From: Vibrio sp. CDRSL-10 TSBA
GTDB lineage: Bacteria; Pseudomonadota; Gammaproteobacteria; Enterobacterales; Vibrionaceae
Length of the DNA: 64,000 bases
Direction of reading: 5' to 3'
Assembly (NCBI GenBank): GCA_039696685.1
Contig: CP155566.1
Location: 3,038,001-3,102,000 of the forward strand
In this document: one piece after another, positions 1,498 through 63,591 of the stretch
Layout: every line of letters starts with the position of its first letter
Numbering within the stretch: position 1 is the first letter of the stretch
Program-made: the position numbers and the translations under genes
Notes under the pieces: model-generated
What the model was told of the DNA's origin: nothing
What the model saw: the letters and a program-made list of their open reading frames with translations, nothing else
Databases searched by the model: none

Positions 1498-2395
1498 ATG
1501 GCCGATCCTAAACAATCCGTGGTGATCGAACACGAAGCAACAACCGGCTCCGGCCAGGAAAAACGCTCCCATTATGTCAAAGACAGTGCTAACCGCATTA
1601 TCGCGATTGCCCAGCAGCATGGCCTGGATGCTTTACTAAGCAGCGAGCCGGCTAAAAAGACACCCTTTGAACGGGCATTAAAACGCGAACGCGATCGTAA
1701 AGAGCAGCGCCAGAAGAATCTCGAGCAAATCGTACGTCTGGCGCATGTTTCCTGTCGTAATGAAACAGCTGGAGAACCCGATCAGGACTGGCTGTATCGT
1801 TTTTTTGATATGGCCCAGGATATCCATAATTCATCGATGCAGCGCCTGTGGGCACAAGTGCTGAAGCGCGAAGTGACTAATCCGGGTTTTACTTCGATGA
1901 AAGCACTGCAGCTCCTGCAGGGTATGACCCCCAAAGAAGCGCAGATTTTGCAGCGTGCAGCCGCTCTGGCCTGCAGCTTCGGCGCAGATAGCAGCCTGAA
2001 ACTGCTATTTGGCCTCAAAGTTCAGCACAGTCTGTTCCGGCTGGGAAAACGGGAAAGCACCAATACACTCAATATCGGTAACCATCAACTGCCCTACGCC
2101 AGCCTGCTGGTATTGATCGAAACTCGGCCTGTTGCACGCCAGCGAGCTGGAGTCGGGGGAAATTGAAATCGATCCGCCCCTCAGTCTCAGTTATCAGGGT
2201 AAGCAGCTGTCGTTAAATGCCAACTCACGCGGTGTGCGCCTGCTTTATTACCGTTTTTCACCGACCGGTAACGAGCTGTGCCGTCTGCTTGGTAATAAAC
2301 CGAACATGAGTTATTACGATCAGCTGGTCGCACTGCTGAGTCAGAAATTTACCGTGCACAGCGACGCCAGCAGCAGTATTCACCATACGGTGTAA
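1498..2395 (+). CDS. TIGR03899 family protein (apparent frameshift at 2119-2123)
   Basis: Uncharacterised Vibrio protein. As written, the frame from the start breaks near 2120 and resumes one frame over. The site reads GATCGAAACTCGG; dropping one A gives an uninterrupted 298-residue product passing through LVLIELGLLHASELESGE. The N-terminal half is highly charged and helical (KRERDRKEQRQKN), the middle contains FFDMAQDIHNSSMQRLWAQ, and the C-terminus is compact. No signal peptide or membrane segment is visible, so it is likely cytoplasmic. I chose the ATG at 1498; a GTG at 1486 in the same frame is possible, and neither has a clear ribosome site. Function unknown. Confidence 0.75.
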
Positions 2396-2428
2396 GCCAG
2401 CCGGAGCGCTTAACCTACATCAGAAACA

Positions 2429-2456
2429 CAAAAATCAGGCCGGGGCCTGATTTTTA
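2429..2456. terminator. Bidirectional rho-independent terminator
   Basis: AAAATCAGGCC pairs with GGCCTGATTTT around a tiny GG-centred loop, with an A-run on one side and a T-run on the other. It lies between the convergent TIGR03899 gene and cysC, so it can end transcripts from both directions. Confidence 0.8.
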
Positions 2457-2507
2457 TTTCACTCTGACTGAGTATTTGATGTCGATATTTCGTGTTTGAT
2501 CGCGCGC

Positions 2508-3128
2508 TTAGCGTTTAATGATCGCACGTTGCGTCAACGCTGCCACACACTGCTCCACCAGCTCATCAATATTTTTGTCACCGGCCGGTAGATCGATCTC
2601 CGGATTCAGCGGCGCTTCGTACGCTGAATCAATGCCGGTGAAATTCGGGATTTCGCCAGCGCGTGCTTTCTTATACAGCCCTTTCGGGTCACGCTGCTCA
2701 CACACTTCCAGCGAGGTGTTGACAAACACTTCGATGAACTCGCCTTCCGGCAGCAGGTCACGCACCAGCTGACGCTCAGCACGGTGCGGAGAGATAAACG
2801 CTGTCAGTACAATCAGACCCGCATCGGCCATCAGCTTTGCCAGCTCACCGATACGACGGATATTCTCGCGGCGATCCTGTTCAGAAAAACCTAAATCGCT
2901 GCACAGACCGTGACGCACATTGTCACCATCCAGCAGGTACGTGTGGAAACCCAGCTCAGCAAGGCGGTTTTCTAACGCGCCGGCTACCGTTGATTTGCCT
3001 GCACCAGACAAACCGGTGAACCAGAGTACGGCCGGTTTTTGCTGTTTCAGCTCGGCACGAAAGTGCTTATCAACCGCATGTTGATGCCACACGATGTTTT
3101 CGTCTTTCACATTAGATGCGGTGCTCAT
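2508..3128 (-). CDS. cysC: Adenylyl-sulfate kinase
   Basis: Phosphorylates adenosine 5'-phosphosulfate with ATP to give PAPS, the second activation step of sulfate assimilation, in the cytoplasm. The 206 residues match the family. The P-loop GLSGAGKS is at about residues 39-46, the APS-binding DGDNVRHGL follows near 67-75, and FISP with downstream arginines is near 111-120. It is the last gene of the minus-strand run cobA-cysD-cysN-permease-cysC; in E. coli cysC directly follows cysN, whereas here a permease gene lies between them. Confidence 0.96.
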   Translation of the reverse strand: MSTASNVKDENIVWHQHAVDKHFRAELKQQKPAVLWFTGLSGAGKSTVAGALENRLAELGFHTYLLDGDNVRHGLCSDLGFSEQDRRENIRRIGELAKLMADAGLIVLTAFISPHRAERQLVRDLLPEGEFIEVFVNTSLEVCEQRDPKGLYKKARAGEIPNFTGIDSAYEAPLNPEIDLPAGDKNIDELVEQCVAALTQRAIIKR

Positions 3129-61425: not shown

Positions 61426-61452
61426 GGTATGCACTCCACGTCAAAGAACAAC

Positions 61453-61971
61453 TTAATGTTCTTCTAGCATTTTTACGATCTGGTTGGCTACCACTTTTGC
61501 ACTTTGATCATCAGTGCGCACAGTAATATCTGCGATCTCTTCATACAGTGGGTTACGATCACCCGCCAGGCCTTCCAGGACTTCGCGAGGGTTGTCAGTC
61601 TGCAGCAACGGACGTTTTTTGTCGCGATTGGTACGCGCCAGTTGCTTCTCGATGGTGGTTTCCAGGTAAACAACGATGCCACGTGCAGATAGACGGTTGC
61701 GGTTCTCTTTGCTTTTCACAGAACCACCACCGGTGGCAAGAACAATACCTTGCTGCTCAGTGAGATCATTAATCACAGCTTCTTCGCGTTTACGGAAGCC
61801 TTCTTCACCTTCGACATCAAATACCCATGCGATATCTGCGCCAGTGCGCTCTTCAATCACAGTATCAGAGTCAACAAACTCCATATGCAGTTGCTGAGCC
61901 AGGTGTCTACCAATTGTGCTTTTGCCAGCGCCCATTGGGCCAACAAGGAAAATATTGCGTTTTTCAGCCAT
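61453..61971 (-). CDS. aroK: Shikimate kinase I
   Basis: Phosphorylates shikimate in chorismate biosynthesis. 172 residues; P-loop GPMGAGKSTIGRHLA at about residues 11-25, shikimate-binding DSDTVIEERTGADIAWVFD and ATGGGSVKSKENRNRL. Intact. First gene of the aro-dam run, after the pil genes, as in E. coli (hofQ-aroK). Confidence 0.96.
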   Translation of the reverse strand: MAEKRNIFLVGPMGAGKSTIGRHLAQQLHMEFVDSDTVIEERTGADIAWVFDVEGEEGFRKREEAVINDLTEQQGIVLATGGGSVKSKENRNRLSARGIVVYLETTIEKQLARTNRDKKRPLLQTDNPREVLEGLAGDRNPLYEEIADITVRTDDQSAKVVANQIVKMLEEH

Positions 61972-62159
61972 GTTTAGCAGTAATTTACAACGTTAATTCA
62001 ATGACATCGCCACAAGGTTACGCCGGACAGAAGTCAGCGATAGGATTGCTTGTGGCACCTATTCCTCACAGATATTTCGTGATAAGACCCGAAATTATCT
62101 AGATATGGTGCCAGTAATGCAACTTTAATTTTTACCGACCACCAATATTGACGGGTAAG

Positions 62160-63591
62160 TTACTGAATCACAACTTTCGGTGTGACGAAGATCAGCAGCT
62201 CACCTTTACCGCTTTGCTGGTAACTGCGCCGGAACAATGCCCCCAGCCACGGCAAATCCCCCAGCAGCGGCACCTTATCCACCGTATGGCTGACACTGTG
62301 CTGGAAAATACCGCCCAGCACCACGGTTTCACCGTCATTAACCAGCACCTGGGTACCTATACGCTGCGTGTTGATCGCAACCGCTTCACCGGTTCCGGTC
62401 TGCACGACTTCGCCCGGCCGGTCCTGGGTGACATTCAGATCCAGCACCAGGCGATTATCCGGCGTAATCTGCGGTGTCACCTTAAGGCTCAGTACGGCCT
62501 TTTTAAACGCCACGCTGGTCGCCCCGCTCGATGACGACTCGAGATACGGAATTTCTGTACCCTGCTCAATAAAAGCCGGCTGCTGATTGGTCGTGATAAG
62601 GCGCGGACTAGAGATAATTTCTGCTTTCGACTCACGCTGCAATGCCGACAGTTCAAGATCAAGCAAGGTGTCAGAGCCAAGACGCGCCACCTGAAACGCA
62701 ATCGTGGAAGCATTCAGTGAGGTGGCGGCCAGATTGACGTTGAGCCGGTCTTCCAGTGCAAGTTCGCCCGACTCATCCGCCAGGGCTGCGCCGGCAAACA
62801 GATTCTCCTCCAGCGAAGCCCCTATCCGGCCATGCGCGGGAGAAGAATGAAATCCCCAGCGTACCCCAAGTTCATCTAAATCACCTTCATTGATACTGAC
62901 AATACGCGCTTCAATCTGCACCTGCTTCACCGGCACATCGAGCGCTCGGACCATTTTCGCGATATCCGCAACGTTCGGCGCCAGATCGCGCACCAGCAGT
63001 GCATTGGTACGTTCATCAACACTGAGCGAAACCGCGCTCAGACAGCAAGCCAAAATTGCCGTCCGTCGCAATGATCGCCGCCATGTCCTGCGCTCTGGCA
63101 TAATGCACCGTGACCACCTGGCTCTGCAGCGGCGCCAGGAGCTGCGCCTGCTCCCTGTGATGCTGCGCCTGACGGGCAAACTCATCCTGCGGCGCAATCA
63201 GCATCACACCATCCGCCAGTTGCATCTCCAGCCCACGGTGGCGCAGGATAAGATTGAGTGCCTGCTGCCAGGTAACGTCCTCCAGGCGCAGCGTCAGCTC
63301 ACCCTGTACACTATCGGACACCACCAGATTGAACCCCTGATAATCCGCCAGCAACTGCAGCACACTGCGCAGCTCTATCGTCTGAAAGTTAAGTGAGATC
63401 CGGTCGCTTTCACCGGGCTTAGCTGGGCTGATATTCTTCGCCGCGCTGGTCGCCTTTTCGCTCGCCAGCACGGTCAGCGGACCGCTCACCGCCAGCATCA
63501 GCATCACTATCAGCAGGCGCAGCAGAGACACAACCGGCAATCTCAGCCAGGCAAAACGACTTACCGGTTCAGGACATCGCATCATATTCAC
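62160..63591 (-). CDS. pilQ: Type IV pilus secretin PilQ (apparent frameshift at 63028-63032)
   Basis: Outer-membrane secretin through which the type IV competence pilus extends. An N-terminal hydrophobic signal (LLRLLIVMLMLAVSGPLTVLA) leads into an STN/N0 domain (ISLNFQTIELRSVLQLLADY), then N1 (RTNALLVRDLAPNVADIAKM) and the secretin core ending GKGELLIFVTPKVV. The break GAGCGAAACCGC (plus) should be GAGCGAACCGC, giving LLSERGSLSVDERTNALLV; corrected length 476 residues. I see no AMIN domain, so it is shorter than many PilQ proteins. The start overlaps the pilP stop (ATGA). Confidence 0.88.

Follow-up and report, generated by a model that had tools for sequence, protein, structure and literature searches.

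The tetranucleotide GAAC/GTTC is the core at which the Dnd system places phosphorothioate (PT) modification in Salmonella and in Escherichia coli B7A, according to the sections of PMC9521924 and PMC9069010 consulted here. Mapping by EcoWI-seq found 12% of these sites to be modified, with a preference for A or C at position −1, T or G at +1, C at −2 and G at +2 (PMC9521924), and nanopore sequencing detected modification at ~4% of sites in wild-type cells (Wadley et al. 2022, PMC9069010). The same nanopore study describes PT as disturbing the pore current and raising errors at GAAC/GTTC, and PT calls dropped 25-fold in a dndC deletion. Here we analyze a finished assembly of Vibrio sp. CDRSL-10 TSBA (G000; two contigs of 3.40 and 1.50 million bases, C1 and C2) in which GAAC/GTTC is recurrently expanded by one base, and we relate these expansions to the Dnd system of the strain. 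Our starting point was a window of 64,000 nucleotides (contig CP155566.1, positions 3,038,001 to 3,102,000), in which a first-pass annotation had reported 28 single-base insertions, each turning GAAC into GAAAC or GTTC into GTTTC (hereafter, the motif). An intact gene within this window has its closest matches in Vibrio, as expected for a Vibrio chromosome. That annotation named no cause; the attribution to Dnd and PT is added by the present analysis.

Frame junctions in the window were placed by tblastn with the open reading frames (ORFs) of G085, the closest relative among 227 Vibrio genomes searched (G000 included), which shares 84% DNA identity with it in one gene. Aligned pieces were kept frame by frame and junctions were set by score, a clean junction being one with a one-base shift. 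Junctions were found in 26 of 74 window genes, 27 in total, and the motif was present in 22 of 23 clean +1 shifts and 0 of 2 clean −1 shifts. At the remaining clean +1 junction, near 11625, the motif lies just beyond the scored span. By chance, the motif overlapped 220 of 20000 random coding points (1.1%). The reference ORFs behind the two −1 junctions are short (63 and 70 amino acids) and have no NCBIfam match at 1e-10, which makes both genes doubtful. Because −1 junctions occur only in these ORFs, the earlier statement that no deletion is required stands. The individual insertion sites were likewise well supported, as the motif stands precisely at 26 of the 28 coordinates and begins 10 bases upstream of the other two (46131 and 47925). 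Twenty-five of the sites coincide with an independently placed frame junction, and two (22499 and 46131) escaped the junction test but appear as single-base insertions when the DNA is aligned. At the last, 8783, only the downstream piece of a gene aligns, from 5 bases past the first base of the motif, which is consistent with an insertion but is not proof of one.

The same breaks extend across the genome. In a wider set of G000 stretches paired with G085 sequence (292.5 kb DNA-aligned, window included), 100 of the 336 genes compared are broken, at 106 distinct junctions. The motif is present at 85 of 89 clean +1 junctions, 0 of 5 clean −1 junctions and 4 of 12 larger shifts. Off the motif, only nine clean junctions occur in ~250 kb (four of +1 and five of −1), and this low rate suggests that the assembly is otherwise accurate. 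Thus, the claims that a single tetranucleotide is affected, and that neither random error nor gene decay would single one out, are upheld well beyond the window. At the DNA level, isolated one-base gaps comprise 125 insertions and 71 deletions; 62 of the insertions are at GAAAC/GTTTC, and the next most frequent context accounts for 13 of the 125. The AGA/TCT context (n = 13) was considered as a second insertion class and rejected, being mostly the misplaced motif (GAAAC/GTTTC adjoins the gap in 11 of the 12 cases listed from outside the window). A table of tetramer expansions drawn from the DNA alignment also placed GAAC at the top (27/822), but it was blurred by the overlap between tetramers and by the placing of gaps (TATA 3/106, AAAA 20/1206), and protein-based junctions were used instead.

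A cruder, reference-free test, in which 5-mers were scored at switches from one open frame to the following one, was applied to 19 stretches of the genome, one of which (L109) is also part of the 336-gene comparison. Over the 7 stretches from C1 (n = 338 frame switches), GAAAC ranked first with 19 occurrences (z 7.1) and GTTTC fifth with 13 (z 4.2), the best other 5-mer reaching 4.7. Over the 12 stretches from C2 (n = 588), GAAAC and GTTTC were jointly top with 22 each (z 5.6), the best other reaching 4.2. Neither 5-mer was among the top eight in G085, in 80 named loci from Vibrionaceae or in the other dnd-positive Vibrio.

Only a minority of GAAC/GTTC sites is affected, and the flanking bases strongly influence which. 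Within the compared genes, 1853 sites are intact and 89 are expanded to the motif, a share of 4.6% of the 1942 sites. The base before GAAC has the strongest effect: 39 of 374 sites are affected when it is A, 27 of 353 when it is G, 22 of 503 when it is C, and a single site of 712 when it is T. For the base after GAAC, the affected fractions are 34/505 for T, 30/430 for G, 17/419 for C and 8/588 for A, and for the +2 base they are 47/754 for G, 23/399 for C, 13/425 for T and 6/364 for A. When these are combined (not T before, not A after, G or C at +2), 63 of 503 sites are affected. The flanks in G000 agree in part with the four published PT preferences: A or C at −1 (61/89 events vs 816/1853 intact, p 6e-6), T or G at +1 (64/89 vs 871/1853, p 4e-6) and G at +2 (47/89 vs 707/1853, p 0.007) are enriched, and C at −2 is not. 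The T-loop of tRNAs contains the sequence GTTCA, which reads TGAAC on the reverse strand. Since TGAAC is the nearly unaffected context, many tRNA genes would probably escape expansion under this rule.

The strain carries a matching modification system. DndC was identified at 551 bits, above its cut-off, and the surrounding region (L090) holds dndB, dndC, dndD (in two pieces), dndE, dptF, dptG and dptH (in two pieces), so that the modification genes dndBCDE and the restriction genes dptFGH are all matched. The splits in dndD and dptH are themselves at the motif. With a truly broken dndD, no modification would be expected, and the split at the motif therefore fits a reading error rather than a change in the DNA. 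Three further ORFs lie in this region: a 192-residue ORF beside the dnd genes without an NCBIfam or PADLOC match (L090:8434-9012), a DGQHR-domain protein resembling DNA phosphorothioation-associated DGQHR protein 1 but below its cut-off (L090:9036-10187), and a 675-residue ORF adjoining dndB without a PADLOC match (L090:15514-17541).

DndC exceeds its cut-off in 29 of the 227 Vibrio genomes (G000 included), and the breaks recur in one of the others. In G069, a second dnd-positive Vibrio whose own dndC match is split between frames, all six clean +1 junctions in the region equivalent to the window are at the motif. Over 158 genes of this genome, the motif is at 17 of 19 clean +1 junctions, and the one clean −1 junction is off it; within the dnd locus, three junctions are at the motif and a further one is a −1 shift. 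The flank rule also recurs, with GAAC preceded by T at none of 17 events vs 289 of 770 intact sites (p 4e-4; 0 of 289 such sites affected) and G at +2 in 11/17 vs 204/770 (p 0.001). The motif and the flank rule in G069 are independent evidence; its dnd-positive status is not.

Genomes and loci used as controls lack the effect. Across 1228 genes and 1.11 Mb of alignment from the 80 named Vibrionaceae loci, whose dnd status was not established individually, no junction is at the motif; 6 genes are broken, with 2 clean one-base junctions, both off it. Two relatives with no DndC above the cut-off, G088 (86 genes) and G128 (57 genes), show no motif junction; their clean one-base junctions (2 and 3, respectively) all lie elsewhere. 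When G085, which also has no DndC above the cut-off, was compared against G088 proteins (96 genes), the junctions were a +1 shift within a run of T and a larger shift, neither at the motif. The breaks in G000 are motif-specific and genome-wide, and in the region compared they are absent from the relatives without DndC above the cut-off (G085, G088 and G128).

The genes affected in the window include several of the core set. Two reading frames meet at the motif in the ribosomal protein genes rpsK (16377..16764, −), rplO (18798..19230, −), rplF (20304..20835, −), rplE (21600..22137, −), rplP (23474..23882, −) and rplD (26400..27000, −), and in trpS (55119..56181, −). In rpoA (14711..15701, −), the junction between the two frames is placed within 8 bases that contain the motif. 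Searching the G000 sequence found rpoA only as these two pieces at a single place, with no second copy. Loss of rpoA is not viable. As rpoA was found nowhere else in G000, the sequence as written is not viable either, and the earlier statement that the cell cannot carry it is sound. Two more genes, rplN (22501..22866, −) and crp, carry an insertion near the gene end that is visible in the DNA alignment only; in rplN it is at the extreme end, and the main piece of crp (45540..46145, +) matches residues 6-199 of a 214-residue model.

The remaining affected genes are spread throughout the window. On the + strand, two frames meet at the motif in genes for a TIGR03899 family protein (1498..2392), a YejM-like protein below its model cut-off (31770..33642), a TIGR02444 family protein (42544..43015) and phosphoribulokinase (44436..45303). 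On the − strand, this is the case in an anion symporter-like gene with a DASS match below the cut-off (3165..4917), cysD (6382..7288), a beta-aspartyl-peptidase-like gene below the cut-off (36053..37004), kefB (38119..39919), an ExeM/NucH family extracellular nuclease gene (52220..54779), rpe (57035..57704), dam (57847..58660), aroB (60342..61425) and a pilQ-type secretin gene (62163..63471). The RNase R gene (29155..31601, −) is in three pieces with both junctions at the motif. In astD (47156..48611, −), the junction between two frames is placed only within 52 bases, and the motif is there in the DNA alignment. An unnamed gene (11280..12183, +) has two frames with the motif just outside the placed junction, and another (8788..9270, +) is represented by a downstream piece (residues 71-231) that begins beside GTTTC, which fits a break without proving it. 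We also observed a strand skew in the window, where motif events on the + strand read GAAAC 18 times and GTTTC 5 times against 203 and 197 intact sites (p 0.01); outside the window the split is 37 to 29.

We consider the insertions to be artefacts, about as certainly as sequence alone allows, and the affected genes are probably intact in the cell. In the mechanism that we propose, Dnd would exchange a backbone oxygen for sulfur at a small, context-chosen subset of GAAC/GTTC sites. During sequencing of native DNA by long reads, the modified GAAC would distort the signal, and the read or consensus software would resolve it as GAAAC. Should most molecules carry the modification at the same sites, the error would survive consensus and every reading frame across such a site would be broken, although the extra bases would not exist in cellular DNA. 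This would imply that the assembly was built on long reads of native DNA, with nanopore a likelier source than PacBio, and was not corrected with short reads. We put the probability that PT at Dnd sites triggers the added A at roughly 85%, a judgment that draws on motif, context, occupancy and gene content rather than on chemistry.

Several explanations compete with PT. It is conceivable, though unlikely, that another modification of GAAC, such as an adenine methylase acting in some contexts, causes the long-read error and that Dnd is a bystander. Modification-mediated nanopore errors are known and have been tied to motif-specific systems in the sections of PMC10687267 consulted, and GAAC/GTTC may also bear N6-methyladenine (m6A) according to the part of PMC9069010 considered. 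However, the low quality described in the consulted text of PMC10687267 stems from mismatches and not indels. PT fits the occupancy of 4.6%, the flank rule and the fact that both affected genomes have dnd genes, with the qualification that G069 was found via its split dndC. Methylases usually fill nearly all of their sites, and the low occupancy therefore counts against a methylase. An ordinary homopolymer error of long reads, or a generally poor assembly, is very improbable. The added base does lie in an A or T run, but only nine clean junctions (four of +1, five of −1) lie off the motif in ~250 kb, a T before GAAC nearly abolishes the effect (1/712), and the largest other insertion context (13/125) is mostly the misplaced motif.

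The two explanations that take the insertions as real are less credible still. Breaks at one motif in many conserved genes could bring to mind genuine insertions that the ribosome bypasses by shifting +1 at GAAAC/GTTTC. A signal of this kind should keep to the sense strand and to a fixed codon phase, whereas the motif reads GAAAC 45 times and GTTTC 44 times on the sense strand and GTTTC occurs in all three phases (13, 13 and 17). The phases of GAAAC (32, 0 and 11) broadly track those of intact GAAC (681, 50 and 331). Because the strands are balanced and GTTTC is found in every codon phase, translation plays no part, and the absence of motif breaks from the 80 other Vibrionaceae loci further reduces frameshifting to a negligible prospect. 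Real decay or mutation at GAAC has nothing in its favor beyond the breaks themselves, and we regard it as scarcely credible given that rpoA, six ribosomal protein genes and trpS are frame-changed and that dndD and dptH of the Dnd system itself are split in the assembly.

A PT origin must also be weighed against observations that fit it less well. The rRNA genes are nearly spared: among the 11 operons (L173-L183), one site copy (in the 23S gene of one operon) is expanded and 539 are intact, although the rate in coding genes predicts 28 of ~540. These copies represent only ~49 independent sites, among which 2-3 expansions are predicted, and the shortfall reflects either chance or a sparing of rRNA genes. 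None of the 12 commonest differences from G085 rRNA is at the motif. The flanks depart from the published rule in two respects, as C at −2 is not enriched (29/89 events vs 582/1853 intact, p 0.82) and G before GAAC is affected at least as often as C. The status of G069 is not an independent draw, this genome having been noticed through its split dndC in the search for dndC, and the reference-free test did not place the motif among its top eight 5-mers. The available parts of PMC9069010 and PMC9521924 do not state that the nanopore error at PT sites is an added A. Furthermore, no motif junction was found at the dnd loci (6-18 kb compared in each) of 20 further dnd-positive Vibrio or of 8 dnd-positive genomes outside Vibrio, the latter being those with one or two contigs among the 22 of 394 genomes of the order with DndC above the cut-off. 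Four E. coli dnd loci, B7A included, are also free of motif junctions (4 compared of 204 genomes with a dndC-like stretch among 5426). In the region equivalent to the window, five dnd-positive Vibrio have no motif junction: G207 (15 genes), G136 (70), G219 (65), G216 (26) and G238 (23). Platform differences are needed to explain these unaffected genomes, and a different or corrected sequencing method is the likely reason.

Among these dnd-positive genomes, G207 had appeared promising by its high contamination value, but its 15 compared genes hold no motif junction. Off-motif +1 or −1 junctions are present at some of the other dnd loci. The dnd locus of the Vibrio genome G121 (L220) has five +1 junctions, none at the motif, which are possibly ordinary sequencing errors or decay, and in that of G457 (L257) a −1 junction was obtained from 14 reference ORFs, the four listed sharing one position.

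If PT is the cause, the consequences reach beyond this strain. The 89 breaks in ~251 kb of coding sequence amount to ~0.35 per kb, which extrapolates to ~1,700 false bases genome-wide if the rate holds. Such a number would suffice to make core genes appear lost and to spoil quality scores, typing and studies of gene loss. We also lean toward the view that every GAAAC scar is the trace of a heavily phosphorothioated GAAC, in which case some finished dnd-positive assemblies would hold partial PT maps readable without raw data. The target rule would then be sharper than the published one, with T directly before GAAC all but forbidding modification (1/712 and 0/289 in two genomes) and T or G after it and G at +2 being favored. 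Public genomes could then be scanned for GAAC-to-GAAAC breaks, both as a sign of an active Dnd system and as a readout of its target rule.

Judged by titles and abstract openings, we found no literature report of PT-caused insertions in assemblies, and the nearest described cases, in the sections consulted, each share only part of the pattern. The nanopore study of Salmonella (PMC9069010) resembles ours in the GAAC/GTTC core, the use of native DNA, the low share of sites and the dependence on dnd. It differs in that it concerns read-level error scores at known sites, whereas in our case the extra base is fixed in the finished Vibrio sequence and breaks genes. The work on Listeria (PMC10687267) likewise describes strain-specific motif errors that survive polishing, in one lineage linked to a defence system with a methylase, but those errors are mismatches at GCAGC and GCTGG, while here they are insertions at GAAC and the modification would be of the backbone. 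With the EcoWI-seq map (PMC9521924), G000 shares the GAAC/GTTC core, its partial use, A or C before, T or G after and G at +2. The two part ways in that C at −2 is preferred only there, whereas in G000 G is tolerated directly before GAAC and T is nearly excluded.

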